Assembly: GCF_003627215.1 (NCBI RefSeq)
Contig: NZ_CP032677.1
Coordinates: 1,803,501-1,867,500 of the forward strand
Source: Pseudomonas sp. Leaf58
Lineage (GTDB): Bacteria; Pseudomonadota; Gammaproteobacteria; Pseudomonadales; Pseudomonadaceae
Direction of reading: 5' to 3'
Length of the DNA: 64,000 bases
Shown here: positions 4,390 to 21,062 of the stretch, piece after piece
Layout: every line of letters begins with the position of its first letter
Position numbering within the stretch: the stretch's first letter is position 1
Translations under genes and position numbers: made by a program
Notes under the pieces: generated by a model
What the model saw: the letters and a program-made list of their open reading frames with translations, nothing else
The model's database searches: none
What the model was told of the DNA's origin: nothing

Positions 4390-7300
4390 ATGGCAAGCAG
4401 GCTAGCGTTATCGCTGGTGATCGGGGGCGCTGTCGCCTCATCGGTAGGTGCAGCGTTCAAGACGGTCGAGAACGGCATCCAGAAACTGGAGGCCAAAGGC
4501 AACAGGGCCAAGGTGCTGAAGAGCACCATTGGCGAAACCATCAAGCTGCGCGAAGAGTGGAAGCGCGCGCACGACAGCGGCGCGGCAGGTGCAGACAAGC
4601 TGCTCCGCAAGCTGGACAGCAATCTGGATGCCTTGCGCAAGCAGGGCGTCGAGGTTGGTCGCCTAAGCCGCGAGTATCAGCGGCTGGGGCGTGAGGCGAA
4701 GAGCGCCGATCTGCAACTCAAGGGTCACCAGCAGCTGCAGGCGGGCAAGGCCTCGCTGAAGTCGAACATTGGCCAGGCTGTGGTTGCCACGGGCATGGCC
4801 GCAGTGCCGACTATGATCAGCGCGAATTATCAAGCGGTCATCCGTGACATTGCGATCAAGGCCGACATCGTCAACAAGCCGGAGGAGCGGCAGCTTACAC
4901 GGACGGTGATCGACACAGCCAAAGACACAGGGATGTCACGCAACGATGTGGCTGACCTGGTCAACCAGCTGGTCGGCGCAGGTATGGAGCTGGACAAGGC
5001 GCTGTCCTATGCGCCGGTCGCGGCCAAGTTCGCGATTGGCCAGGGGTCTTCGGGTGTCGACACCGCGTCGATGATCCAGGCGCTGCAGCAGAACGCCAAA
5101 ATCAACGATCCGAAGGTCATGCAGCAGGCGCTGGAGGCTATTGCCTACCAAGGCCAGGCGGGCAGCTTCGAGGCCAGCGACATGGCCAAGTGGTTCCCGC
5201 AACTGCTGGCCGGCATGGAGAAAAACGGGATCACCGGGCTAGACGCGGTGACCTCGCTCGGCTCGATGCTGCAAGTCCAGATGAAGACCGCCGGCAGTTC
5301 GGACGAAGCGGCGAACAACTTCAAGAACTGGATGGAGAAGATCGGTTCCAGCGACGTGGTCAAGGCCTACAAGGACGCTGGCATTGATTATCAGGGCTCG
5401 CTCAACACCGGCCTGCAGAAGGGCATGAACGTCATTGAGGCGTCCATGGCCCTGGCCATGAAGTACGTCGAGGCGACCGACCCCGCGAAGGCTAAGAAGA
5501 TCGAGGCGGCCAAGGCCAAAATCGACAAGGAAGTCGACCCCGAAAAAGCCAAGGCTGCACTGGACGCTCTGGAAAAGACCCTGCGCACCGGCGACATCTT
5601 CGCCGACATGCAGGTCAAGGCGGCGCTCACTGCTTATGGGCAGAACAGGGGGCTGTATGAGGAACTCAAGGCCGACTCGCAAAAGGCTTCGGGCATCCTC
5701 GACAAAAACCTGGCCGAGCGCCGTGAAACCTCGGCGCAGCAGTGGGCCGAGACGGTCCAGGCGGCTGACGACGCAATGCGCAGCATTGGCGACGCTATCC
5801 GTCCTGCAACTGATATGGCGGCGAAAGGCCTGACAGCGGTCGCCCGTGGCATCACCTCGCTGTCTGACAGCTTCCCGGCTATCGTCGCGGGCATTACCGG
5901 CACCGTGGCGGCCATCCTCGCACTCAAGACTGCGTCCAGCGCGTTCAAGATCGGGCGTGGTGTGTTGAATCTCGCGCGAGGTCGAGGCCTGGAGAGGATG
6001 GCCGGCCGGGCAGGGCGTGGCGATCGTACGCCCATTGAGCTGCCTAAGACGGGCAGCAAAGTGGTCGATACCGGCCTTGGCCTGCTGGGTAAGGTGTTTG
6101 GAGCAACGCCGACGGATGCGGCGCCTGCGAACGACTCGCTAGCAGGCAGGGATGATACGCAGCGGGTGTTCGTGGTCAATACCGATGCATTCAGCGGGAT
6201 CGGCAGTAGCGTCACAAACAGCGCGCCTGCAGCACCTGCCCGTGGTAGTCGTAGAGCCCGGCGTCGGGCTCGCAGACGAGAGGCAAGGCAAGCGCCCCCA
6301 GCCCGGTCCGGTGTGAAAGTTGAGGCCCCTAAGCCGCCACCGGTGAAGCCAGCTATTCCTGCTGCTGCGCCGAAGGTGGTGACCGGGGTTGAAGATTTGG
6401 GCAGGGTTGCTCGCTCGGTGCGTGGCGTTACGCGTCTTGCCAAGCGACTGCCTGGTGGGAATGTGGTGGACGCCGGTGCCGCTGCGATCGATGTCGCGAT
6501 GAATGCCAGTTCTCAAGATGAGAAGGCAGAGGGGTACGGAGGTGCAGCTGGCAGCCTTGCGGGAACACTCGCAGGCGCGGCTGCTGGAGCGGCCATTGGA
6601 TCGGTGGTACCGGTCATAGGGACGGCAGTAGGCGGCGCCATCGGTGCTGTACTGGGTGGAATGGGTGGCGAGTCGCTCGGCGGGTGGCTGGGCAAGCGCT
6701 GGTTTGGCGATGAGCAACCCGAGCTCGAAGCCAGGGCGAAGCCGGAAAGTCCGCCAGCGCCTGAGGAGGCGGTACGTGTATCCCTGGCACCGGCTCAAAA
6801 GGACAAGCCAACCCCCAAGGTTGATACCTCGGCCCCGTTACCAGCAGCGGCAAAGGCTGCTGTCTTAGCGCCGATAGTGATCGACAACCGTGAACCTGCC
6901 ACCCGGTCAGTGCCGGCGGCGCCGGTACCGGCACTAGGTGACACGGTGCGCAACGTGCCAGCCGAGCCTGAGGTGTCGTATGAACCGCTCAACCCGGCGT
7001 CTAAAGATCCTTACCTGGTGCCCGCGCTGACGGCCAACAAGGTCCGTTTCCCAGGTGCGCCTCTGGTGCGGCCACCGGCGCAGCCCGAACCTCAACCTGA
7101 GGTCGAGCCGATCGAGCAGGAACTGCCGAGGTTGGGCGACACGGTGCGAGCCGTGGCCACCCCGACCCCGGCTGAGCCTGAAGTGTCGTATGACCCGCTC
7201 GACCCGGCGCCCAAAGATCCGTACCTGGTGCCCGCGCTGACGGCCAGCAAGGTGCGTTTCCCTGGTGCGCCACTTGTACGGCCGCCGGCGCAACCGGCGC

Positions 7301-8271
7301 CTCAAGCCGAAGGCGTGCCGATCGCGCAGGAGCCGCCAGCGAAACTGGGCAAGACGGTGCGAGCCGAGGCCGTTTCGGCTCCGGTACAACCTGAGCCAGC
7401 AGTCGAGCCTGAACCGGCACCGGCGCTGCAGGAACTGCCGAGGTTGGGCGACACGGTAAAAGCCGTGGCCACTCCGACCCCGGTCGAGCCTGAAGTGTCG
7501 TATGACCCGGTCGACCCGGCGTCCAGGGACCCGTATCTGGTCCCGGCATTGACGGCAAGTAAGGTTCGCTTCCCTGGTGCGCCGCTGGTGCGGCCCCTGG
7601 CGCAGCCTGACCCTATGCCTGAACCTGTGCTGCAGGAAGCACCGAAGCTAGGCAGCTCAGTGCGAGCCGTGTCTGCACCGGCGCCGACTGAGCCTGCGGT
7701 GTCGTACGACCCGCGCGACCCCGAGTCCAAGGACCCGTACCTGTTGCCGGCGTTGACGGCCAACAAGGTGCATTTCCCCGGCGCAGGCCTGGTGCCACCG
7801 CAAGCCCAACCGCAACCGGCGCCGGCAACGTCGCCGGTGAAGCTGGGCGAAACGGTGCGCGAGGTTCCGGCTAAATCGGCACCGGCGCCTGTGATGATCA
7901 ACAGCAGCGAGCGTAGGCCCGCCGCTGATCGTGCGTCACCGCCAGCTGTCCCCCAGTTGGCAGCCTTGCCGGCCGGTTTCGGTGATGTGGTGCGGGACAT
8001 GGTGGCCAAGTCGGCACCCGTGCCACCTCGGATGCCCGAAGTGGCTCAACCAGCCAAAGTGGCTGCGCCTGGTGCGGTATCGGCGCCGAAGGTGGATCAG
8101 GCGTTTTCGTTCTCGCCCAACATCAAGATCGATGTGCAGGGCGATGTGAAAGACCCGTCGCAGGTTGTCCGTGAAATCGAGTCGCCACTGCGCCAGCTGT
8201 TTGAGGCATGGCAGCGCGAAGCATCAGCGCGCATGACTTCGGCTCAACTGTTCGATCAACCGCATGTTTAA
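4390..8271 (+). CDS. T: Tail tape measure protein with proline-rich repeat domain
   Basis: This 1293-residue protein is the longest in the tail cluster. The N-terminal 450 residues carry the TP901-type tape-measure core: helical, with an SRNDVADLVNQLVGAGMELDKAL-like stretch split by Gly turns. Hydrophobic segments follow at about 495-515 and a Gly/Ala-rich membrane-like stretch at about 715-760 (AGAAAGAAIGSVVPVIGTAV). Residues about 770-1215 are Pro/Ala/Val-rich and contain four copies of an EPxVSYDP...KDPYLVPALTA module. The last 70 residues (FSFSPNIKIDVQGDVKDPS) form a conserved tail-tip domain. It sets tail length and is delivered at contraction. The proline-rich insertion is unusual among relatives I know. 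Confidence 0.85.
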   Translation: MASRLALSLVIGGAVASSVGAAFKTVENGIQKLEAKGNRAKVLKSTIGETIKLREEWKRAHDSGAAGADKLLRKLDSNLDALRKQGVEVGRLSREYQRLGREAKSADLQLKGHQQLQAGKASLKSNIGQAVVATGMAAVPTMISANYQAVIRDIAIKADIVNKPEERQLTRTVIDTAKDTGMSRNDVADLVNQLVGAGMELDKALSYAPVAAKFAIGQGSSGVDTASMIQALQQNAKINDPKVMQQALEAIAYQGQAGSFEASDMAKWFPQLLAGMEKNGITGLDAVTSLGSMLQVQMKTAGSSDEAANNFKNWMEKIGSSDVVKAYKDAGIDYQGSLNTGLQKGMNVIEASMALAMKYVEATDPAKAKKIEAAKAKIDKEVDPEKAKAALDALEKTLRTGDIFADMQVKAALTAYGQNRGLYEELKADSQKASGILDKNLAERRETSAQQWAETVQAADDAMRSIGDAIRPATDMAAKGLTAVARGITSLSDSFPAIVAGITGTVAAILALKTASSAFKIGRGVLNLARGRGLERMAGRAGRGDRTPIELPKTGSKVVDTGLGLLGKVFGATPTDAAPANDSLAGRDDTQRVFVVNTDAFSGIGSSVTNSAPAAPARGSRRARRRARRREARQAPPARSGVKVEAPKPPPVKPAIPAAAPKVVTGVEDLGRVARSVRGVTRLAKRLPGGNVVDAGAAAIDVAMNASSQDEKAEGYGGAAGSLAGTLAGAAAGAAIGSVVPVIGTAVGGAIGAVLGGMGGESLGGWLGKRWFGDEQPELEARAKPESPPAPEEAVRVSLAPAQKDKPTPKVDTSAPLPAAAKAAVLAPIVIDNREPATRSVPAAPVPALGDTVRNVPAEPEVSYEPLNPASKDPYLVPALTANKVRFPGAPLVRPPAQPEPQPEVEPIEQELPRLGDTVRAVATPTPAEPEVSYDPLDPAPKDPYLVPALTASKVRFPGAPLVRPPAQPAPQAEGVPIAQEPPAKLGKTVRAEAVSAPVQPEPAVEPEPAPALQELPRLGDTVKAVATPTPVEPEVSYDPVDPASRDPYLVPALTASKVRFPGAPLVRPLAQPDPMPEPVLQEAPKLGSSVRAVSAPAPTEPAVSYDPRDPESKDPYLLPALTANKVHFPGAGLVPPQAQPQPAPATSPVKLGETVREVPAKSAPAPVMINSSERRPAADRASPPAVPQLAALPAGFGDVVRDMVAKSAPVPPRMPEVAQPAKVAAPGAVSAPKVDQAFSFSPNIKIDVQGDVKDPSQVVREIESPLRQLFEAWQREASARMTSAQLFDQPHV
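6964..7800 (+). repeat. Four degenerate in-frame repeats inside the tape measure gene
   Basis: Copies of the module encoding EPEVSYDP, then KDPYLVPALTA, KVRFPGAPLV and RPPAQP begin at 6964, 7174, 7486 and 7690, with spacings of 210, 312 and 204 bases. All lengths are multiples of three. Each module is linked by an LGDTVRAV-like segment that also occurs before the first and after the last copy. Confidence 0.9.
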
Positions 8272-8280
8272 GGAGGGCCT

Positions 8281-9126
8281 ATGGCCTACATGGAGCAGCT
8301 GGAGTCCTCCCTGTCCGGACTGGTTTCAGCGGGTGAGGCCGGTCGCAAGGGGGTGGACGGCATGCTGTCCCCACTCAATAGCGCGGTCGGCAGCATCACG
8401 GGTGCCGCGTCGGAGCTGGAAAACATTCCATTCGTGGGGCCTGAGGCGGGTGCGAAGCTTGGCCGGATAGTGCGCAGTATCAACGTGGCACAGTCTCAGG
8501 TGGGGCAGGTGGCGTCGATGTATAGCCGAGCAGTCACCGGCGCCGCTCAGGTACAGGAGCGGCTCGGCACCTTCAAGCAGATGGCGGCCAAGGTCACGGC
8601 CCAGGCCGGCCGAGTGGCGGGGTTGGTCAGTCCGTCGCTGTCCAATGTGTTGCCTACCGGCGGCCTATTGCGCTCTGCCACTCCGCTACCTGAGTCGGTT
8701 GCGCCATACCCGCACCTCCTGATCATCCAGCCACACGACCCAAAGAAGCAGCCGTATTACTTCAACCTGGGCACGGCAGCATTTGACGAGTTGCGGCGTC
8801 AGACCTCGTTCCGTTGGGCTGGCCAGGAGCGTCTGCGCCGAAGTGTGGCCCAGCAGGCAGTTGGCTTGGGTGAGGAAAAGATCACACTTAAGGGTGCGAT
8901 CTTCCCCCACCACAAGGGCGGCATCAAGCAACTGAGCGTGCTGCGTAGCATCGGTCGCAACCTGCAAGCATTGAAGCTGGTCACGGGTTATGGCGAGGTG
9001 CTGGGCGATTGGTGCCTGCTCAATATTGAAGAAGAGCAAAGTCACCTGCTGGCGGGTGGCATCCCCCGTAAACAGGGCTTCAACCTGGAGTTTGTGAGCT
9101 ATGGCAACGACCTGCAGAACGTCTGA
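8281..9126 (+). CDS. U: Tail protein gpU with extended N-terminus
   Basis: Residues about 145-281 match the P2 GpU family, from PHLLIIQPHD through FNLGTAAFDELRRQTSFRW and ITLKGAIFPHHKGG to the C-terminus; this domain acts as a tail terminator. The first 140 residues are an extra helical, Ala/Gly-rich extension resembling other Pseudomonas tail proteins, making this about twice the length of P2 gpU. It starts ten bases after the tape measure and overlaps the next gene by 26 bases, suggesting translational coupling. Confidence 0.85.
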   Translation: MAYMEQLESSLSGLVSAGEAGRKGVDGMLSPLNSAVGSITGAASELENIPFVGPEAGAKLGRIVRSINVAQSQVGQVASMYSRAVTGAAQVQERLGTFKQMAAKVTAQAGRVAGLVSPSLSNVLPTGGLLRSATPLPESVAPYPHLLIIQPHDPKKQPYYFNLGTAAFDELRRQTSFRWAGQERLRRSVAQQAVGLGEEKITLKGAIFPHHKGGIKQLSVLRSIGRNLQALKLVTGYGEVLGDWCLLNIEEEQSHLLAGGIPRKQGFNLEFVSYGNDLQNV

Positions 9127-9307
9127 CGGGGATCTGCTCGATGTGATCTGTCAGCACCATTACGGAAATCTCAATGGCACGGTCGAAGCAGTGCTCGATG
9201 CCAACCCGGATTTGGCCAGGGAGGCACAGCCGTACCGTGCCGGCCTGCTGGTGTTGCTGCCCGATCTGTCGGTGCCGGCAGTCGAACTCCTGCAGCTGTT
9301 CGACTGA
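9101..9307 (+). CDS. X: Tail protein X (LysM-like)
   Basis: This 68-residue protein has the GpX/LysM-like pattern: DGDLLDVICQHHYGN, then VEAVLDANPDLA, and a C-terminal LLVLLPDL strand. The domain is small and is found at the baseplate/tail tip in P2-type phages. It overlaps gpU by 26 bases, so its own ribosome site lies inside U. Confidence 0.9.
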   Translation: MATTCRTSDGDLLDVICQHHYGNLNGTVEAVLDANPDLAREAQPYRAGLLVLLPDLSVPAVELLQLFD

Positions 9308-9325
9308 CCCCGCGTTACGCGTAAC

Positions 9326-9350
9326 GAAGCCCCGCCCCGTGCGGGGCTTC
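9326..9350 (+). terminator. Strong hairpin between X and D
   Basis: GAAGCCCCGC and GCGGGGCTTC form a ten-base perfect stem, followed by a T-containing run. A second small palindrome (CGTTACGCGTAACG) lies just before it at 9313-9326. It may attenuate transcription into D. Confidence 0.6.
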
Positions 9351-9367
9351 CTGTTTCTGGAGTAAGC

Positions 9368-10411
9368 ATGAAACCAACGTATCGAATCATCGCGGACCGC
9401 AAAGACATCACCGCGCTGATCAATGACCGCTTGCTGCTGTTGCGGATCTCAGACAAGCCAGGCATGGAGTCGGACGAGTTTGAGCTGCGCATTGATGACC
9501 GCGACCAGGTCGTTGCGCTGCCTGCTCGGGGCGGAGTAGTGGAGGTTTTGCTGGGCTACGAGGGGCAACCACTGAAGCGCATGGGCGCCTATACGGTCGA
9601 CGAGGTGCAGTTATCCGGACCGCCTGATGAGCTGACTATTCGCGGCAAGGCCAGCGATATGCGCGGCAGCGGCAAGACCATCCGTAGCGGCAGTTGGGAG
9701 AATGTGCCGCTGTCCGAGATCGTCGCTGAAATTGCCAAGCGCAACGGCTGGGAGGTGGTTTGCCCGGTCACGACGAAGGTCGAGCGGATCGATCAGCGCA
9801 ACGAATCGGATTTCAACTTTGTCACGCGCCTGGCTCGGCAGTACGACAGCACCGCCAAGGTCGCCCAGGGCAAGTTGCTGGTGATGCCCCGGCAGGGCGG
9901 GAAAAGCACTTCGGGCAAGTCACTGCAGGTCATCAGTGTCAACAAGACGGAAGTGTCCCGCTATCAGTTCCGGCTAAGTGACCGCAGTACGCAGAAGGCA
10001 GTGAAAACCCAGCATCAGGACCAGAAGACCGGTGCTTTGAAGGTGGTCCAGCTGGACAACGAAGAATCGCCAGAGGGCCTGCCCCCAGTTCACACCGACC
10101 GCCATATCTACCCCAACGAGACTGCAGCCAGGCAGGCCGCCAAGGCGCGGCTGGCCGCGTTCAACCGCAGCACTGCCGGTGTGCGCCTGGAGATGGCGGG
10201 CCGGCACGACCTGTTCGCGGAGTGCTCGGTGAATGCCCAGGGCTTCAAGGTCGGGCTTGATGGCGAGTACCTGGTGGAAAGCGTGGAGCAGATGTTCACG
10301 GCCAGCGGGTGGACCACGACCGTGGAGTGCAACGGCGGCAAGAAGGGCAAGGCCAAGGCCTCTGGCAAGAAAAAGAAAGACGACAAGCCGCTCAAGGTTG
10401 AGCAGCTCTAA
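9368..10411 (+). CDS. D: Baseplate hub / late control protein gpD
   Basis: This 347-residue protein of the GpD family (P2 late control D, equivalent to the gp27-like hub) starts PTYRIIADRKDITALINDRLLLLRISD and carries ADDF-type hub strands. The C-terminus is strongly basic (GKKGKAKASGKKKKDDKP). It lies at the conserved place after X. Two degenerate partial copies of this gene lie at 16.8-17.0 kb and 18.7-18.8 kb, outside the presumed element end. Confidence 0.9.
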   Translation: MKPTYRIIADRKDITALINDRLLLLRISDKPGMESDEFELRIDDRDQVVALPARGGVVEVLLGYEGQPLKRMGAYTVDEVQLSGPPDELTIRGKASDMRGSGKTIRSGSWENVPLSEIVAEIAKRNGWEVVCPVTTKVERIDQRNESDFNFVTRLARQYDSTAKVAQGKLLVMPRQGGKSTSGKSLQVISVNKTEVSRYQFRLSDRSTQKAVKTQHQDQKTGALKVVQLDNEESPEGLPPVHTDRHIYPNETAARQAAKARLAAFNRSTAGVRLEMAGRHDLFAECSVNAQGFKVGLDGEYLVESVEQMFTASGWTTTVECNGGKKGKAKASGKKKKDDKPLKVEQL

Positions 10412-10436
10412 CCCCCCCGACACACTGGAGAGAACA

Positions 10437-11006
10437 ATGGCTATCTCGGTTCAACAGTTGCAACAGATCCTCCCCAACGCCGGCCGCAAAGCCGGCGTTT
10501 TTGTTCCCGGCCTCAACGCAACAATGGGCAAGTACTCGATCATCACCCCTCGGCGTATGGCTGCGTTCCTTGCACAAGTCGGCCATGAGTCGGGCCAGCT
10601 GCTGTATGTGCGAGAGCTCGGTAACGATGCCTACCTGGCCAAGTACGACACCGGGCGGCTGGCGGAGCGCCTAGGCAACACCCCGGCGGCTGATGGCGAT
10701 GGCCAGCGGTACCGTGGCCGTGGACTTATCCAGATCACCGGGCGCGACAACTACGAGGCCTGCAGCGAAGCGCTGTTCGGAGACAGCCGCTTGCTCAACA
10801 CCCCCGACTTGCTCGAGCAGCCCGTCTACGCCTCGCTGTCGGCCGGCTGGTTCTGGCAGCGGGCAGGGCTTAATACCCTGGCTGACAAGGTGCTGCAGGC
10901 CGATGACTCGGTGTTCGAGCTGATCACGCGCCGTATCAATGGCGGCCTGAATGGGTTGAAGGATCGCCAGGCGCTCTACAAGCGCGCGCTTGAGGTGTTG
11001 CAGTAA
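10437..11006 (+). CDS. Endolysin, GH19 chitinase-like lytic enzyme
   Basis: The 189-residue product starts MAISVQQLQQILPNAG at an ATG with a GGAGAG ribosome site. The GH19-like core includes AAFLAQVGHESGQL with the conserved catalytic-type Glu, RYRGRGLIQITGRDNY, and a C-terminal ITRRINGG. Such enzymes cleave peptidoglycan and replace lysozyme in R-pyocin and many Pseudomonas phages. Its stop TAA shares a base with the ATG of the next lysis gene. There is no signal peptide, so it needs a holin. Confidence 0.88.
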   Translation: MAISVQQLQQILPNAGRKAGVFVPGLNATMGKYSIITPRRMAAFLAQVGHESGQLLYVRELGNDAYLAKYDTGRLAERLGNTPAADGDGQRYRGRGLIQITGRDNYEACSEALFGDSRLLNTPDLLEQPVYASLSAGWFWQRAGLNTLADKVLQADDSVFELITRRINGGLNGLKDRQALYKRALEVLQ

Positions 11007-11560
11007 TGCCGCTGAACTGGCGTATCGCCCTTCTGGCCGTTGCGGTCGGGCTCTATGCCGGCGGGCGAGGGGCCTGGGTGTGGCAGGCCAGCGAGTACGG
11101 AAAGCAGCTGGCTGAACAGGCTGCAGGTTATGTTCAGCAACTGGCGGACAGTGATCGGGCTCACGGTCGAGAACGTGAGGAGGCTGCAGCTGCAGCCCTG
11201 GAGCAGTTGGCAGCGCAGAAAAGTCAGCGACAGGCCTTGGAGGATCGCCTGCAGGAGCAGGGCAAAACACACTGGAAGGAGATGAACGATGCAAAACAGA
11301 CTCAAGATCGCCTGCGTGACAGGCTGGCTACTGCTGACTTGCGGCTGTCAGTCCTTGTCGACGCCGGAGCCTTTGCCGCCACGGGTGGTGACGGTGGGAT
11401 GCGAGAAGCCGCCGGCACCGGAGGCGTGGTTCATGGCGCCTTACGCGCCCGACTTGACCCAGCGCATGCTCAACGAATTATCGGCATCACCGACACCGGT
11501 GATCGAGGACTGATCGCACTGCAGGCCTGCCAGGCCTACGTCCGCGAAGTCACCAAATGA
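11006..11560 (+). CDS. Rz-like inner-membrane spanin
   Basis: This 184-residue protein has an N-terminal membrane anchor (LNWRIALLAVAVGLYAGG) followed by a long Gln/Ala/Glu-rich coiled coil from about 30 to 120, the typical i-spanin layout. It begins on the last base of the endolysin stop codon. A second lysis gene with a lipoprotein signal is encoded entirely inside it in another frame, the hallmark arrangement of Rz/Rz1. The C-terminal 60 residues look less conserved, as they must also accommodate the embedded frame. Confidence 0.8.
   Translation: MPLNWRIALLAVAVGLYAGGRGAWVWQASEYGKQLAEQAAGYVQQLADSDRAHGREREEAAAAALEQLAAQKSQRQALEDRLQEQGKTHWKEMNDAKQTQDRLRDRLATADLRLSVLVDAGAFAATGGDGGMREAAGTGGVVHGALRARLDPAHAQRIIGITDTGDRGLIALQACQAYVREVTK
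11289..11513 (+). CDS. Rz1-like outer-membrane spanin lipoprotein nested in Rz
   Basis: A 74-residue frame fully inside Rz encodes a lipoprotein signal (MQNRLKIACVTGWLLLTCGC, likely lipidated at one of the two Cys) and a short Pro-rich mature part (TPEPLPPRVV), which is the standard Rz1 composition. Outer and inner spanins bridge the periplasm and fuse the membranes in the final step of lysis. Confidence 0.8.
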   Translation: MQNRLKIACVTGWLLLTCGCQSLSTPEPLPPRVVTVGCEKPPAPEAWFMAPYAPDLTQRMLNELSASPTPVIED

Positions 11561-11678
11561 AAAGAGGCGAGCCGGGTAGATGCGTCAACATCCAGCCCGG
11601 CCCGCCGAACCCGCAGACCCTTCCTGCAAGTCCAGCCGTGGCCTCTGCCTTGTGCACAAAGCGCGGCGAGCCTAACAC

Positions 11679-11694
11679 CTGTTTATCCATACAG
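11679..11694 (+). promoter_or_regulatory. LexA (SOS) box upstream of the DNA adenine methyltransferase
   Basis: CTGTTTATCCATACAG fits the CTGT-N8-ACAG LexA consensus exactly and ends 17 bases before the methyltransferase ATG. At this distance LexA would block the promoter or early transcription, making the gene DNA-damage-inducible. Confidence 0.75.
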
Positions 11695-11711
11695 TAAAGA
11701 CTTGCATACCT

Positions 11712-12506
11712 ATGACCTCTCCTATTATTCCTTGGATGGGTGGCAAACGCCGCCTGGCCGACCGCTTGATCCCTCTCTTTCCCCCTCATGAATGCTACGT
11801 CGAAGTATTCGCCGGCGGCGCCGCGTTGTTCTTCATGCGCCCCCAGCCCGCCCCAGTGGAGGTGCTGAACGATCTCAACGGTGACCTGGTCACCCTCTAC
11901 CGGGTTGTGCAGAACCATCTGGAGGAGTTTGTGCGCCAGTTCAAGTGGGCGCTCAGTTCCCGGCAGATCTTCGAGTGGCAGAAGATGACGCGCCCTGAAA
12001 CCTTGACCGACATCCAGCGAGCGGCGCGGTTCTTCTACCTGCAGCAGCACGCCTTCGGCGGAAAGGTCACTGGTCAGACGTTCGGAACCGCGACCACCGG
12101 GCCGGCAATCAACTTGTTGCGCATTGAGGAGAACCTATCCGTCGCATGGCAGCGCCTCGCCTGCACCTACGTCGAAAATCTGTCCTGGCTCGCCTGCGCC
12201 GAGCGGTACGATCGAGCGCACACGTTCTTTTACATGGACCCACCGTACTGGCAGACCGCAGGTTATGGCGTCGATTTTCCCTTCGAAGAGTATGAGCGCA
12301 TGGCCGAGTTCATGCGTCGGTGCAAGGGCAAGGTAATGGTCAGCATCAACGACCATCCGGACATCCGCCAAGCTTTCGAGGGTTTCCACTTCGAGTACCT
12401 GGATATCCGCTATAGCAACACGAATCAGCGCCAAGGTAAGGCGGAGGTGACCGGCGAACTGGTGATCATGAATTGGGAACCCTCAGAGCTGCAACAGCTT
12501 TTCTAG
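11712..12506 (+). CDS. Orphan D12-class DNA adenine methyltransferase
   Basis: This 264-residue N6-adenine methyltransferase of the Dam/D12 family has an N-terminal PWMGGKRRLADRL segment (SAM site, residues about 6-18), YVEVFAGGAALFF, VLNDLNGDLV, and the catalytic DPPY at about residue 176 (YMDPPYWQTAGYG). The length is typical. No restriction endonuclease is adjacent, so it is a solitary methylase, probably protecting phage DNA or modifying the host. A perfect LexA box lies 17 bases upstream and separates it from the lysis genes. Target sequence cannot be inferred with certainty; GATC is possible. Confidence 0.88.
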   Translation: MTSPIIPWMGGKRRLADRLIPLFPPHECYVEVFAGGAALFFMRPQPAPVEVLNDLNGDLVTLYRVVQNHLEEFVRQFKWALSSRQIFEWQKMTRPETLTDIQRAARFFYLQQHAFGGKVTGQTFGTATTGPAINLLRIEENLSVAWQRLACTYVENLSWLACAERYDRAHTFFYMDPPYWQTAGYGVDFPFEEYERMAEFMRRCKGKVMVSINDHPDIRQAFEGFHFEYLDIRYSNTNQRQGKAEVTGELVIMNWEPSELQQLF

Positions 12507-12695
12507 TTGTAGATATTGCAGCCAACGCAAAACTTCAATGCAGTGGGTTATGATCAGATTGATAGTGTGCATGACTTTCTCCTAGGTGAGTTTGCCCACC
12601 GATAGTTTATCGTATGCAAGTATGCTTCAGATGGGGCGATTTAACCGGGAGATTTAATTGTATGCCAATAGATTAATGCGTTGCGCTCTATCCAT

Positions 12696-12740
12696 AGGCG
12701 CCACTTAGGCCTAAGGCACCTAATTGGCGCCTTTTGTTTT
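12696..12740 (+). terminator. Terminator closing the methyltransferase transcript
   Basis: AGGCGCCA and TGGCGCCT form the outer stem with TTAGGCCTAA inside, followed by TTTGTTTT. It lies in a 353-base gap (12507-12859) that is otherwise AT-rich and holds no gene I can support. It separates the + strand phage genes from the two convergent minus-strand cargo genes. Confidence 0.75.
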
Positions 12741-12859
12741 AGGGGGTAAATTTGCTGAAGCTGCGAGGCTACGGGTTCTGGAGCATAAAGTAAGGTGTTG
12801 GCGGTAATCACTGATGTACATGTTCACCGGTTCCCGCGGCGCTCTTTTAGAGTCTGATA

Positions 12860-14551
12860 TTAGCTGGCTGGATCGAGCTGTAGATAAACTAATTTCGGTT
12901 CATTCCTCAGTCCTTCTGCTGGATATGTTTTTACAAGCTGGTTGCTTTTGGCGTCATAAGTTATTCTATCTGGCAAGCATGCTTCAGCTACGCGAGGGTT
13001 GTTAGCATGTAATTTAGAGTAATTTCTTTTCGTCCATGCAAGGATCGCTTTGTGCAGCGGTCGGCACTCTCTTTGGAAGTCTCCTTTAGGAACAACCAAG
13101 CCCAGCACATTAAGGCAGTAAGCTAAAATTGGAGAGCTTTTGAAATTGGGGAAATTTTCCAACTGAATGATTTCGTTATAGACTATGCGGTGTAGCTTAT
13201 GTCTGATTGCACGTCCTGCTGGGCCGGCTAGCGCGAATTGTAGTTTGCTCCATATCATGTTGTGTTGTATTGACCAGCAGTCCCACCATGGTGATTTAAC
13301 GCATGATGCATGATGAATTGTTTCAAAAATTATGCTTGCCATGTCGTCATATATGGATTCATAGGGGTGCCCGTATGCAACTTTTATACGGAGGTTAATT
13401 CTTTTCGGGGCGCTATGTTCGTCAAGAATCTTAACGGCTTCTTTTGTGAAATTCATTATTGCTTGCAGCTTTTGTACCGGTTCGCTTTCGTAGCTATTAG
13501 CTAACCCGTTCACTGTGTAGAGATCTGAGGTCGCAGAAGTAAGATAGTCCGTTGCTCTCCTTAGTGGCCGGGAATAGGTAAGGATCTTCGCGTCTGCGTA
13601 TCCCTGGAGAGCGACTAACACTAACCTGCAGTATGCGTCCCATTGAACTGCACTCCATTTTCTCTTGCCCAACAAGTCAGGGTCTAGTAATGAATCTATA
13701 CTCTCGATGGCTTTAGGGTTGGAAAACATAGCTTGGCTAAGCGGTCTCAGGTGACCAATTAATCCAGATTCATAAGCGTCTGTCTCATGGTAAAGGAATG
13801 AGTTGGGATTGCTTAGTGCCTCCCGTACGATATTTTTGGAAAATGTCTCAATTGCAATGCCATATTTCCCCTGGTCATTGATTTCTTCGAATATTGCGAG
13901 AGCGGTTATGGGAGATGAATCGATGATGGCTCGGCACAGACGTTTGTCTGCTATGAGAAGAAGTAAGTCGTGAGCGTATCCTTCGGCATTGGTCAGCCGC
14001 TGCAGTACTTTTCCTTCAGGCAATTCATCCGCCTGCTTTCCATGTCTATATCTGTCAGGTGCATGTCTTACGAGTGCTTCCGCAGAAGACGCGAGCTCAT
14101 CAGCAATTACTGAAAGCTCGGCTGGGTCCCCTTTTATGATATGTCGATAAAGCGATTTAGCAAAACGTTCAGCATTGCTCCTCCCAAATTTAGGTGGACG
14201 TATGAAAGCGAACCACGCCCAAGCTAAGAACGTTAGCAAAAAAATGCCACCTAAGAGTGCTTGCCATAAAGCCGGCGAGAGAAGTTTACCTTCTGGAACC
14301 AGCCAGCCTTGCGCACGCCATAGGTCAGTTACCAGTGTCAAAAAACCGACCCCACATACAATGAAATAGGTTGCTGCGAAGAGTGGAACGGGCGCCGCTC
14401 GAATTCGAAAACGATACCGGACATCTCCAATTGTCCAAGCAAGAACCATAAGAGCAAGTCCGGTTAGAAACTCGGAAAAACCGAAAAACTTTGGTCCTGA
14501 CGGGTCGAGGTGAAAAAAGCATATCGTCCCATAGCAGATGTCGGTGGTCAT
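12860..14551 (-). CDS. Membrane-anchored 563-residue protein of unknown family (cargo candidate)
   Basis: I do not recognise this family. Three predicted membrane helices lie at about residues 23-43, 54-74 and 96-117. They are followed by about 445 residues of mainly helical soluble sequence, probably cytoplasmic, with no Walker, nuclease or protease motif that I can name. The start is an ATG with a GGAAGA ribosome site. Base composition is clearly more AT-rich than the tail genes and the flanking chromosome, and codon use is mixed, indicating recent acquisition. It is convergent with the phage late transcript and in the same direction as the ApeA-like gene, 264 bases away. Its position at the prophage end suggests a defence or superinfection-exclusion role. 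That is inference from context only. Confidence 0.75.
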   Translation of the reverse strand: MTTDICYGTICFFHLDPSGPKFFGFSEFLTGLALMVLAWTIGDVRYRFRIRAAPVPLFAATYFIVCGVGFLTLVTDLWRAQGWLVPEGKLLSPALWQALLGGIFLLTFLAWAWFAFIRPPKFGRSNAERFAKSLYRHIIKGDPAELSVIADELASSAEALVRHAPDRYRHGKQADELPEGKVLQRLTNAEGYAHDLLLLIADKRLCRAIIDSSPITALAIFEEINDQGKYGIAIETFSKNIVREALSNPNSFLYHETDAYESGLIGHLRPLSQAMFSNPKAIESIDSLLDPDLLGKRKWSAVQWDAYCRLVLVALQGYADAKILTYSRPLRRATDYLTSATSDLYTVNGLANSYESEPVQKLQAIMNFTKEAVKILDEHSAPKRINLRIKVAYGHPYESIYDDMASIIFETIHHASCVKSPWWDCWSIQHNMIWSKLQFALAGPAGRAIRHKLHRIVYNEIIQLENFPNFKSSPILAYCLNVLGLVVPKGDFQRECRPLHKAILAWTKRNYSKLHANNPRVAEACLPDRITYDAKSNQLVKTYPAEGLRNEPKLVYLQLDPAS

Positions 14552-14815
14552 AAATCTTCCAGGCAGGCTGTTATCGATGTCATGAGGTAGCTGAGGCTAG
14601 TCTTAACTGTAGTAACTGAGTCGCACATGTTTGATTTTGTGACACGCTCTGGCTCACTTATATGGGCTATATTCGGAATGATGGGTAAACAGCGCCGCAT
14701 TCAATCCGATCTGCGCAGCGGCCACTGTAATTCCAGTGGGCTGAAAAGCGTAAACACCTGCTAACAGCTGATTGCTCAATTTTTGTTATATGGCTGCAGT
14801 TCGGGTTGTATGTGT
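14552..14815 (-). other. AT-rich gap between the two cargo genes
   Basis: No open frame worth calling is present. Because both genes read leftward, this gap should contain the promoter of the membrane protein and the end of the ApeA-like transcript. There is no obvious T-run terminator, so read-through from the ApeA-like gene is possible. Confidence 0.4.
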
Positions 14816-16321
14816 CTATTCACTGCTGCTGAGTTCCGTATCGCTGTCAAGGGCTTTTATTAATTCATCGCTATGCTCTTTGTAGTGTATCAGGAATCGA
14901 CTGAAACTGTGCCCGAATCCATGATGATTATCGAGCCACTGTTGAGTATCCCAACCTGCTTCAATCAAATCTGACGCAGAAAAAACGAACTCAAGAGCAT
15001 CGGTTAAAAATGGAATCAATGGTTGAATCTTTTTGTAATTGATGCCATTCAATGAGCCGTGTACAAAGTAATTTCGAATTTTTACACCCGTTGTGCATGC
15101 TGTGGAAATCTCGGGCAGTGACTTGCCGAAATGGTTTGCTACGATTTGTGCTCTATAGTTAACTTTTTTAGGGAGTGAAGGTTTCCCAATTCGTCCTAAA
15201 GAATTTAATATACTGTTTCGGTCTGGTGATACTGGAAGATCCCTAAATATTTTTTGACATTCCTTTCGTGCTTTTTCAAGCTCTGCTGATATTGATGCAG
15301 GGATGGGGGTGGCATCTGGAGGTAGTATGTCAAACATATTTGCTGCAGCTACGAGCCTATCAATGTCGTAAAGATCTCCTTTTTCTAAGCATCCCACATA
15401 TCGCCACCTGGATGCGGCCCATTCATGGTGGCGATCGATCCAGCTTGTTAGAACGCGTTTGAATTCATCTGGGGAGTTGATTGGGTTAAGAGGGATGTCG
15501 CCGGCATGAGGCTTATGATGACTACCTTTGGCTGATGTTTTTGTTGCGTAGCTTGCGAATACTGCTAAGGGTTTAGGTGTTTCGTCGGCATCAATGGAGG
15601 TTTCAATTTCTATGTTTTTTATTCCTTGTACGCGTCCCGCTACATAAGACAAGAAGCAGTTCAGGGTCAAAAGATTGTCCATTGCCTCTTTGAATGTGAG
15701 GTGTGAGTGGAACTCCAATGAGATCAACATTCGGTTATCAATATGTGCGCTAGCAGGAGGACGCGTATTGAACGCCGGTCTATGATGGACTGAGATCTTT
15801 CCGATGGATGTTGTGGCTTCGATGGCGCAATATTTTCCGCTGAAGTATATGAAATGCGGGTGTTCACCAAGGGGGACGGTTCGAGCTCCATCTTTCAATA
15901 GTGCCTCAAGGTCCTCGCGCTTCGAAAACCTGTGTCCGAGTACGTCGTGATCGTAGAAGAGTGTGTAAATGTCTTTGGGTTGAAAGCTTATTCGTTTGAT
16001 GCAATTAGCGTCTGGATCGAAATGATGTGAGCCTAGAGCAACATAATGGGGAAATATATTTGCATAATATCTGAATTCATCTTCTTTAGTTTGAATGAAG
16101 GAAGGTGGTTGGCTTATGCAGTCTATTAAGGTTATTTGTTGGCCAGCGTATGAGACCCCAGTACCTTTGACGATGTTTTGCGACTCAATAGGACTGTCCA
16201 AATGTATTCGGACGTTGGTGTTCTTTCCATCGAGCTTAAGCTCGCCTACCACGTTACGATTGTCCAGTAGCTGAAACGTTCCAAGGTGGCGGTTAGGTGC
16301 TGTTTTTTTCTTTTTACTCAT
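14816..16321 (-). CDS. ApeA-like HEPN-domain protein, candidate abortive-infection RNase
   Basis: The 501-residue product starts MSKKKKTAPNR at an ATG with an AAGG ribosome site; an upstream in-frame ATG 36 bases earlier lacks one. The N-terminal 300 residues are beta-rich with LGTFQLLDNRNVVGELKL and a later LTFKEAMDNLLTLNCFLSYVAG, the pattern of ApeA N-terminal domains. The C-terminal helical region contains VKIRNYFVHGS, with R416 and H421 forming the R-x4-H motif of HEPN RNases. Known ApeA proteins act as single-gene abortive-infection defences, probably cutting RNA once triggered. The gene is AT-rich and sits between the phage methylase and the element's dusA attachment remnant. The family call rests on remembered patterns and needs a profile search. 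Confidence 0.65.
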   Translation of the reverse strand: MSKKKKTAPNRHLGTFQLLDNRNVVGELKLDGKNTNVRIHLDSPIESQNIVKGTGVSYAGQQITLIDCISQPPSFIQTKEDEFRYYANIFPHYVALGSHHFDPDANCIKRISFQPKDIYTLFYDHDVLGHRFSKREDLEALLKDGARTVPLGEHPHFIYFSGKYCAIEATTSIGKISVHHRPAFNTRPPASAHIDNRMLISLEFHSHLTFKEAMDNLLTLNCFLSYVAGRVQGIKNIEIETSIDADETPKPLAVFASYATKTSAKGSHHKPHAGDIPLNPINSPDEFKRVLTSWIDRHHEWAASRWRYVGCLEKGDLYDIDRLVAAANMFDILPPDATPIPASISAELEKARKECQKIFRDLPVSPDRNSILNSLGRIGKPSLPKKVNYRAQIVANHFGKSLPEISTACTTGVKIRNYFVHGSLNGINYKKIQPLIPFLTDALEFVFSASDLIEAGWDTQQWLDNHHGFGHSFSRFLIHYKEHSDELIKALDSDTELSSSE

Positions 16322-16497
16322 GATGAACCTTGCTCTTCCTTTGCAAGCCAGCGTCAAGTCAAGGCAGATTGCCCGTTTCTCCGGTCAAGAGGAATAGGAA
16401 TATTCGATTCTGAAAGGTTCGATGGTAAAAAATTGGTACGAATGGTGTGATCTGATGGCACAGGCTATGAATTACGTGGCTTGTGCGGAAAACATGC

Positions 16498-16548
16498 CCA
16501 ATCCATCATCGGTGCAACGCTGAAGCGGCGGGAGGGCTCAGGGCGCAT
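16498..16548 (-). other. dusA: dusA 5'-end fragment, presumed attachment site of the element
   Basis: On the minus strand an ATG at 16548 opens MRPEPSRRFSVAPMMDW, the N-terminus of tRNA-dihydrouridine synthase A. The homology stops abruptly after MMDW, where true DusA continues TDRHCR; here an unrelated short tail and a stop follow. The 5' end of dusA is an established insertion site of a family of integrases carried by prophages and islands. The fragment therefore marks the right boundary, with the prophage to the left and the former dusA upstream region to the right (16549 onward). The gap 16322-16497 holds only element-end sequence, with no gene seen. Confidence 0.75.
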
Positions 16549-16799
16549 GGTTGCTGGGTTAGAGCCTGATTTTGCAGTCATTTCGTTCAACGTGTTCTGT
16601 ACCGGTTTCGGGATTTTTGGGGCGTTTTTTACCGCGTGCATGGTGCTTTGTACCAAGCGAATCAGGGCGTGTACCGATTCCCAATGCAACGGTCAGTCCC
16701 CGCAAGAAGGCAGGCGGCACCATCAGCTGCGAAGCTCAGATCCGCATCAACCACGATAAGACGACAGTTTACCAAGAGAGCGCCTAGGTATCGAATAAA

Positions 16800-17005
16800 C
16801 GCGGATCGCACGGGCTTCATCGCGCAGATCAATCACCGCCTGTTGCTGCGGATCTCGGACAGTTGGTGATGCCCCGGCAGGGCGGTAAGCGCTTATCGGG
16901 CAAGTTACTCTAGGTCGATGCTCAGGGCTTCAAGCTCGGGCTCGATGGTGAGTACCTGGTGGAAGGCGTGGAGCAAGTGTTCAAGGCCAGCGGGTGGACG
17001 ACGGA
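16800..17005 (+). pseudogene. Internally deleted relic of a gpD tail gene
   Basis: Three stretches match the D gene at 9368-10411 in the right order with large deletions between. 16800-16860 encodes a version of ADRKDITALINDRLLLRISD, 16861-16912 of LVMPRQGGKSTSGKS, and 16918-17005 of NAQGFKVGLDGEYLVESVEQMF. Frames are broken and a TAG interrupts. It lies about 250 bases outside the dusA fragment, so it is not part of the present element. A small GC hairpin (GCCCGCC/GGCGGGC-like) at about 17017-17034 follows. 17035-17194 holds no gene. Confidence 0.8.
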
Positions 17006-18830: not shown

Positions 18831-19036
18831 TTTTTTAGAGTTTTTGCTTGAAAGGCTTTGGAAGTAGCCTAATGTGAAAATTCTGTTGAGTAACGTTGCG
18901 TCTCGTTTCTACTAGGCAGTGCTCGCCGGAGCTCTCTGAAATCGCTAGCGCGGTGTAAGTGCCTAATTTCATGTGATTTTTCATTTGCTGGCAGTTGCCT
19001 CTTTGGTACGGCGCATCACTTGAAAGGGAGTTTGTC

Positions 19037-21062
19037 ATGCGATTGATTGCCAAACCGAATACGCCTCATGAAAAGTCTGAAACGCCATCGTCACTATGGA
19101 AATTGGGTTCTTCCTTTCTGTTGGCGAGTGCTATCGCGCTCACCACCCAGGCATGGGCCGAAGAACCTCCGAAACCCGCCACAGATGCCACCAAAGCTGC
19201 AAATGACGCGCTTCTAAAAGAGCTCCCCTTTAACGATAAAACCTCTTTCGAACTGGCTCATAAAGGCTTCGTTGCTCCGCTTCCTACCGAGCCGATCAAA
19301 GGCCCTAGCGGTAACATGATTTGGGACCCGAATAAGTACAACTTCATCAAAGAAGGTCAAGCTGCACCTGCGTCCACCAACCCGAGCCTTTGGCGACAGT
19401 CGCAGCTTATCAACATATCCGGTCTTTTCGAGGTAACCGACGGTATTTACCAAGTGCGTAACTACGACCTATCCAACATGACCATCGTGGAAGGCAAAGA
19501 AGGTATCACCATTTTCGATCCGCTGATTTCCCGTGAAACCGCCAAGGCTGCGCTTGACCTCTATTACAAGCATCGGCCCAAGAAGCCGGTTGTGGCGGTG
19601 ATTTACACTCACAGTCACGTTGACCACTACGGCGGGGTTCGCGGCGTGATCAACGAAGAGGACGTCAAGGCCGGCAAGGTCAAGGTGTACGCCACCTAAG
19701 GGCTTCCTTGAACATGCGGTTGCCGAAAACGTAATGGCCGGTACTGCCATGAGTCGCCGGGCCAGCTACATGTATGGCAACCTGCTGCCGCCCAACGAGA
19801 CTGGCCAGCTAGGCGCGGGGTTAGGGACCACCACTTCGGCCGGCACTGTGACGCTTATCCCGCCAACTGACATCATTGAGAAAACCGGCGAAAAGCGCAC
19901 CATTGATGGTCTGACCTATGAGTTCTTATATGCGCCTGGTAGTGAAGCACCCGCTGAAATGCTCTATTACATTCACGAAAAGAAAGCGCTTAACACTGCC
20001 GAAGATTCCACCCACACGCTACACAACACTTATTCGCTTCGGGGCGCAAAAATCCGCGAGCCATTGCCTTGGTCCAAGTACCTCAATGAAGCTTTGAAAA
20101 TGTGGGGTAATGACGTCCAAGTGATGTACGCCATGCACCACTGGCCGGTTTGGGGCAACAAAGAGGTGCGCGACCAGTTGTCCTCGCAGCGTGACATGTA
20201 CCGCTACATCAATGACGAAACCCTGCGCCTGGCGAACAAGGGTTACACCATGACCGAGATCGCTGAGCAGGTTAAATTACCCAGTGGTATCGCCAATCGA
20301 TTCTCTAACCGTGGCTACTACGGTTCGCTTAACCACAACGTCAAAGCCACGTATGTCCTCTATCTCGGTTGGTTCATCGGTAACCCCGCCACCCTTTGGG
20401 AGTTACCACCGGACGAACAAGCCAAACGCTACGTCGACATGATGGGCGGCTCTGAGGCAGTCCTGAAAAAAGCCAAGGAGTACTACGACAAGGGCGACTT
20501 CCGCTGGGTGGCCGAAGTGGTCAACCACGTGGTATTCGCTGAGCCAAACAACCAGGCCGCGAAAAACATGCAGGCCGATGCCCTGGAACAGCTCGGCTAC
20601 CAAGCTGAAAGCGGGCCGTGGCGCAACTTCTACCTGACCGGAGCCAAGGAGCTGCGCGAAGGCGTCAAGCAGTTGCCAACGCCGGATACCGCTAGTCCGG
20701 ACACCGTCAAGGCCATGGATCTTGACCTGTTCTTCGACTACCTGGCCATGCGCTTGAAAGGGCCTGAGGTGGCTGAAAAGCACATAACGCTTAACCTTGA
20801 CTTCACCGATCTTAAGCAGCAGTACACCCTTGAAATGGTCAACGGCGTGCTCAATCACACTGAAGGCATGCAGGCCAAAAACGCGGATGCCACCATTTCC
20901 TTAACCCGTGACACCTTGAACAAGCTGATGCTCAAAGAAACCACGCTCAAGGATGCAACCACTGCTGGCTCAATCAAGATTGAGGGGACTGAAGGCAAGC
21001 TCGAAGAGCTGATGAGTTACATGGACAACTTCGAGTTCTGGTTCCCGATCGTCACACCTTGA
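19037..21062 (+). pseudogene. SdsA-type alkylsulfatase gene broken by a one-base insertion
   Basis: An ATG at 19037 (AAGGGAG site) starts a secreted protein with a signal peptide ending TQAWA. The metallo-beta-lactamase motif THSHVDHYGG follows near residue 195, typical of Zn-dependent class III alkylsulfatases (SdsA1 family). The frame stops at TAA 19697-19699. The frame displaced by one base resumes at once with PKGFLEHAVAENVMAGTAMSRR and runs to 21062 through the dimerisation domain and the C-terminal SCP2-like domain (ITLNLDFTDLKQQYTLEMVNGVL). Removing one base within 19691-19694 restores a full-length protein of about 675 residues. As written the enzyme is not made; a sequencing error cannot be excluded. 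Confidence 0.85.

Follow-up and report, generated by a model that had tools for sequence, protein, structure and literature searches.

Two AT-rich genes stand at the end of a prophage in Pseudomonas sp. Leaf58, and the question raised by this locus is whether they work together as one anti-phage machine or were brought to the same place separately. The locus lies in a stretch of 64,000 nucleotides (contig NZ_CP032677.1, positions 1,803,501 to 1,867,500), which as a whole is called the window below and whose coordinates are used here. A previous sequence-only reading proposed that the two genes, one encoding an ApeA-like HEPN protein (gene A) and the other a membrane protein of no named family (gene B), make up a single two-component defence. 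Our surveys do not support this proposal: in the flanks available, the A profile matched at a single one of 38 genome loci of B and at none of nine viral loci, and B turned up at 1 of 11 other loci of A. With a probability of about 0.58, we consider the A–B block to be lysogenic-conversion cargo of two separately acquired, independent defence genes, A of the ApeA type and B a membrane effector; the two look more like separate cargo genes than like one two-part machine. The block consists of the following parts.

12860..14551, minus strand: gene B, a 563-residue membrane protein with three transmembrane (TM) segments (about residues 23-42, 57-77 and 97-118) and then a soluble domain, as predicted from hydropathy and conservation
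14552..14815, no strand: the gap of 264 bp between A and B
14816..16321, minus strand: gene A, a 501-residue ApeA-family protein (ApeA_NTD1 plus HEPN_Apea, with R416-N417-x3-H421), recognised by Pfam and alignment

The earlier description of the block as an AT-rich gene pair antiparallel to the phage late operon proved correct. Its guanine-cytosine (GC) content is 45.0% over 12507-16497 (43.6% in gene A and 45.7% in gene B) against 62.5% for 4390-12506, and the lowest-GC 3.5-kb windows in the 64 kb are those covering the block. Both open reading frames (ORFs) are uninterrupted and occupy the minus strand. No promoter- or terminator-like match was found within the gap between them. The block DNA had no match in plasmids and, among 55 genomes, matched its own one alone.

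Gene A belongs to the known ApeA kind, as indicated by both ApeA Pfam domains, an invariant motif and loci that mostly lack B. The TTG start listed for this gene is probably wrong; an ATG at 16321, with a purine-rich sequence upstream, gives the protein of 501 residues. ApeA_NTD1 (PF18862) is matched over residues 12-294 with 63.9 bits (cut-off 25.5), and the C-terminal HEPN_Apea domain (PF18739) with 40.2 bits (cut-off 24.4). The catalytic motif of HEPN domains is R(x)4-6H, and the RN(x)3H motif of gene A (R416, N417, H421) is invariant in 47 of 47 aligned rows, so the ApeA-like assignment stands. Homologues numbered 483 among the candidates scored; in the 120 of them that were listed, ApeA_NTD1 is always present and HEPN_Apea accompanies it in most, not all. 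The three closest relatives, 79-86% identical, are full length. Gene A found no match among solved structures or in the phages collection, and four plasmid records matched it with at most 38% identity. No neighbour gene is common to all 11 other A loci, which come from seven genomes of the genus and four viral contigs. A stands shortly before a phage terminase gene in a viral contig (L050) and in a chromosome (L074), and L051 is similar by eye; these three represent one shared prophage setting. The ApeA_NTD1-HEPN architecture, in which the ApeA HEPN domain follows an N-terminal domain of mostly beta structure, has been known since 2013 (PMC3710099), and ApeA is listed among the HEPN anti-phage defence systems (PMC7699616, PMC10952713). 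Gene A adds to this family a prophage-borne Pseudomonas relative with an intact catalytic motif.

The soluble domain of gene B, about 440 residues long, lies C-terminal of three N-terminal predicted TM segments, which are supported by hydropathy over 60 aligned rows. Net charges of +2.5 after TM1, +0.7 between TM2 and TM3, and +4.1 after TM3 fit an N-out/C-in topology. TM1 is the most conserved of the stretches compared (mean column entropy of 0.38 bits vs 1.08-1.75 in soluble segments), and all 60 rows share E27, T40, R49, T75 and Q97 as well as N126, S156, N240, S251, E256 and N481. Since TM1 is so conserved and such residues are invariant, we argue that the membrane part of B works, beyond mere anchoring.

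The view that B is a membrane protein without a named family also holds. Neither Pfam, NCBIfam nor PADLOC 2.0.0 gave a credible match to the gene itself, and when every member of the 60-row alignment was compared with Pfam at E 1, the recurrent matches were no better than E ~0.014. The only family matched was phrog_25374, a phage family whose function is not given (3.1e-75; residues 139-560 of B, profile positions 2-401 of 406). Among solved structures, one chain, C4-Zn1-HEHE-1, appeared at E 0.02; no match was found in the phages collection or in plasmids. At least 857 homologues were detected at E <= 0.001 among 8000 candidates scored, with relatives in Pseudomonas, Burkholderia, Cupriavidus, Bordetella, Pseudoxanthomonas, Halomonas, metagenome-assembled genomes of Acidobacteria and other groups. 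The three closest relatives, 83-87% identical, are full length, and relatives at this level of identity occur e.g. in P. monteilii; a search with the most divergent copy retrieved 11 proteins, all of them lacking a Pfam domain. The distribution of B is sparse and patchy: of 398 genomes surveyed in the genus, three carry it, and of 369 in the class, one, its own included. B is a candidate for an undescribed defence gene, from a large, well conserved and patchily spread family in which the 60 members scanned against Pfam had no credible match. Should B defend, it could serve on its own as a single-gene system, and the invariant TM residues offer a direct way to test the membrane hypothesis.

Whether A and B form a pair was addressed in 38 genome and nine viral loci of B (47 in all, own genome excluded) by scans that were pattern-based, not exhaustive. 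The flanks vary: only 22 of the 47 loci have 5 kb or more on each side, and L022, L026, L029, L030, L035, L038 and L047 are partial or split B matches. The A profile matched in the flanks of one genome locus (L011) and of none of the viral ones; B was absent from the available flanks of 10 of the 11 other A loci. L011, which shares its genome and contig with G107, holds an adjacent pair, B then A, about 45 nt apart, whereas the order in the window is A then B. Its B is 58% identical to that of the window, its A is 27% and 41% identical in two pieces and is interrupted by an in-frame stop. Thus, in the flanks available, neither conserved adjacency nor a fixed gene order was found, and an obligate A+B two-component system is rejected.

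Association of a looser kind does exist. With Pfam's broader HEPN_Apea profile, an ApeA-type gene was found in Dyella mobilis (L025), co-directional with B and about 2.6 kb upstream of it; its ApeA_NTD1 score of 41.0 is above the cut-off, and HEPN_Apea is borderline (22.7 as a whole protein vs 24.4, and 25.8 in the genome-wide scan). In the same region (L025:2854-16707), two genes that look integrase-like by eye bracket the ApeA_NTD1-HEPN gene, a DUF5677 gene, genes without a Pfam match, B and a relaxase-like gene. A third ApeA-type match in a genome with B (Iodobacter) is on a contig other than that of B. Altogether, PF18739 is present in 3 of 37 B genomes vs 5 of 368 other genomes of the class (Fisher P 0.029), the scan covering 37 of the 38 B-locus genomes because L031, another assembly of the L014 strain, was left out. 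Of the 398 genus genomes, 3 carry B, 8 carry A and 2 carry both, own included; without the own genome the counts are 2, 7 and 1 of 397 (P 0.035). Among the 369 class genomes, each gene occurs solely in its own genome. These surveys suggest that A and B meet more often than unrelated genes, yet they are not an obligate pair. The co-occurrence noted by the sequence-only reading is not confined to the window: the two kinds of gene are adjacent in L011 and share an island in L025. The association stands and the obligate partnership does not. Shared defence hotspots suffice to explain it.

The neighbourhood of B was analysed with genes called by a longest-ORF rule, some of which are spurious. For counting co-directional neighbours, the near-duplicates L031, L039, L044, L046 and L047 were dropped, leaving 42 of the 47 loci, and ORFs of at least 110 amino acids were considered. 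B has no co-directional ORF of this size within 100 nt in 30 of the 42 loci, and 11 of the 42 lack any such ORF on one side. Where close co-directional partners occur, they differ: a DUF4238 protein, the ApeA relative of L011, an Mrr-like nuclease (L015), T5orf172 (L043) and several proteins without a Pfam match; other ORFs in this count may be spurious. The DUF4238 gene (L003) has its stop 10 nt before the ATG of B, and PMC9122126 describes a DUF4238 protein that conferred strong T7 resistance by itself. The distance to B is about 1.3 kb for a BrxL gene in L010 and about 240 bp for a NucC-like nuclease gene in L007. Tyrosine integrases (PF00589) account for 7 of 124 neighbour ORFs. Nine integrase ORFs were found within 2 kb of B (141.5 kb) and four at 2-10 kb (~460 kb), a comparison biased by queries picked mainly near B; the count of 7 of 124 is independent of that choice. 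The PADLOC matches among the 124 neighbours fell into 45 families, mostly with one ORF each among the matches listed and with no far control, and some are probably not defence, such as those of the “Cyclase” models, which may match an RNA 3'-phosphate cyclase.

Two further arrangements were noticed at these loci. Related proteins of 254 and 236 amino acids are encoded directly 5' of B, with a gap of 33 nt, in a Halomonas genome (L013:9197-9958) and in a viral contig (L042:3151-3858); the former has no Pfam match. At L019:12075-14048, a Tn7-like element is suggested by a TniQ-like gene that lies about 360 bp away from B and opposite to it in strand.

Several points weigh against reading the block as two independent defence genes. 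PADLOC gave gene A a weak PDC-S58 match (E 5e-6) and none to an ApeA-named model, the presence of which in the library is not established. The Pfam and PADLOC scans revealed no nuclease, NADase or other recognisable effector domain in B. The defence-type neighbours of B amount to guilt by association without a matched control, and several others, e.g. in L023 and L034, look by eye like ordinary chromosomal genes. Finally, ApeA-type genes are commoner in B genomes, and two of the three lie no more than about 2.6 kb from B, which makes some cooperation conceivable.

The lack of a known effector domain and of a PADLOC 2.0.0 match, together with the ordinary-looking neighbours, may mean that B is cargo without an anti-phage function, e.g. 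a surface or envelope-stress trait, and that A alone defends. We regard this as unlikely, although it deserves to be kept in mind: the rarity of B, its patchy spread over several phyla and its integrase and defence-type neighbours fit conflict genes better.

The cooperation mentioned above would amount to a true two-component system, in which A would be the ribonuclease (RNase) and B a membrane-bound sensor or effector. The co-direction of the two genes in the window, the close pair of L011, the upstream ApeA-type gene of L025 and both co-occurrence statistics are in its favour. However, 37 of the 38 genome loci and all nine viral loci of B have no A-profile match in their flanks, 10 of the 11 other A loci have no B, the gene order varies, A is far more diverged than B and is interrupted in L011, and the gap in the window measures 264 bp. 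We find such a system rather improbable.

More doubtful still is a reading in which B, with its three TM segments and cytoplasmic domain, serves an undescribed class of defence as a modular membrane hub and takes a different, exchangeable soluble partner from island to island: ApeA-type RNases (in the window, in L011 and near B in L025), DUF4238 (L003), the Mrr-type nuclease (L015) and GIY-YIG/T5orf172 (L043). If this were true, B would sense infection at the membrane and license the adjoining effector, and its solitary copies would act via the membrane alone.

The borders of the block are consistent with its role as prophage cargo and are formed by the following features.

11679..11694, no strand given: LexA-box-like site upstream of the methylase gene, beginning 33 bp 5' of its ATG (pattern match)
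11712..12506, plus strand: last late gene, a D12-class N6-adenine DNA methyltransferase (PF02086, 3.3e-24; phrog_56, 1.5e-99)
12696..12732, plus strand: terminator-like hairpin past the late operon, then the T-rich run TTTTGTTTT (fold of 12680-12745)
16498..16781, no strand: copy of the dusA 5' end with an integrase-start remnant, the right attachment-site copy (79% over 289 bp)
16788..17003, plus strand: remains of a phage tail gene in three pieces, internally deleted (pieces of 9379-10318 are 79-90% identical)

Upstream of the block, phage genes match tail sheath, tape measure, tail and endolysin families, and Rz-type genes are present too. The site at 11679-11694 is presumably LexA-like, as judged from the LexA-box consensus; the pattern has four matches within the 64-kb window and is weak alone. 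The fold of 12680-12745 has a minimum free energy of -25.4 kcal/mol (z -2.26; 4 of 200 shuffles fold equally well), and the hairpin was not listed by a simple terminator scan.

At the other side, 16498-16781 is 79% identical over 289 bp to positions 1775005-1775288 of the same contig (G000:C1), where a dihydrouridine synthase gene (PF01207) and, next to it, an integrase gene (PF00589) begin, both confirmed by Pfam. Because of this match, the block is taken to end at an attachment-site copy, and the two copies place the prophage at about 1775.0-1820.0 kb of the contig. The prophage is a dusA-site element of about 45 kb, with the A–B block at its far (attR-like) end. The cargo position given by the sequence-only reading, between the methylase gene and the dusA 5'-end copy, is thus confirmed; of its limits for the block, 12860..16548, the position is right, and the end at 16548 takes in part of the attachment copy. 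The synthase gene is probably dusA rather than another dus gene, judging from the sequence as read and PMC4482086.

The gene holding 9379-10318 matches phrog_52 (tail protein). The remnant at 16788-17003 we take to be gpD-like. Given the integrase-start and three-piece tail-gene remnants past 16498, the dusA site was probably once occupied by a second element of this kind, now decayed. That the A–B block is inert genetic debris is very improbable. In favour of this, it borders the decayed element, and A is broken in the sole other adjacent pair; against it, both frames are full length with conserved motifs, and so are the three closest relatives of each (83-87% identity for B, 79-86% for A).

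Two other observations concern the prophage and its surroundings. Between the dusA-side integrase and the phage genes (L069:13755-18834, about 1777.3-1782.3 kb of the contig) are an HD-domain response regulator and a large hybrid sensor kinase, an unusual phage cargo. Downstream of the tail-gene remnant, two consecutive plus-strand ORFs resemble the front and the back of one alkyl sulfatase: 18995-19699 has a metallo-beta-lactamase fold that breaks off at position 77 of the 196-position profile, and 19734-21062 has the alkyl sulfatase dimerisation and C-terminal domains; the gene seems to be split.

Returning to two independent defence genes, we suppose that A would be a single-gene abortive-infection protein, the N-terminal domain of which senses some infection product, and the C-terminal HEPN domain of which, with RN(x)3H, would cut RNA so that the infected cell is arrested. 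Such an infection-triggered RNase leading to growth arrest is suggested by established HEPN biology, part of which is given in PMC3710099. B would act independently as a self-contained membrane effector, its TM bundle with invariant polar residues being kept silent by the large cytoplasmic domain. Upon infection by a competing phage, this domain may release the bundle, and the inner membrane would be permeabilised or depolarised, following a Rex-like logic by analogy.

Comparison with known systems places the two genes differently. Like the single-protein ApeA system, gene A combines ApeA_NTD1 with HEPN_Apea in that order, above curated cut-offs, and it likewise carries RN(x)3H and usually has no fixed partner, which is a likeness at the gene level. 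It differs in having no ApeA-named PADLOC match, only weak PDC-S58 ones. For B, the match to phrog_25374 spans the soluble residues 139-560, but not the TM bundle, where the most conserved stretch lies.

A known system that B may parallel is RexAB, known from lambda and as RexABpp from P. putida, where activation of RexBpp damages the membrane (PMC12894663). It is likewise prophage-borne and comprises a membrane protein with a soluble partner. RexA is described as DNA-binding, not as an RNase. A two-gene dependence of the RexAB type, in which a soluble sensor activates a membrane effector, was not found here: A and B are genomically separable, not obligate partners, and B carries its own ~440-residue soluble domain.

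The setting of both genes is a familiar one. According to PMC4482086, the dusA 5' end is a known integration target for islands and prophages with an integrase beside dusA, imperfect direct repeats and highly variable cargo. The prophage of the window is alike in its integrase beside dusA, its 5'-end target, its imperfect repeats and its variable cargo, and represents an ordinary example of this group, with the remnants of a second element at the same site in addition.

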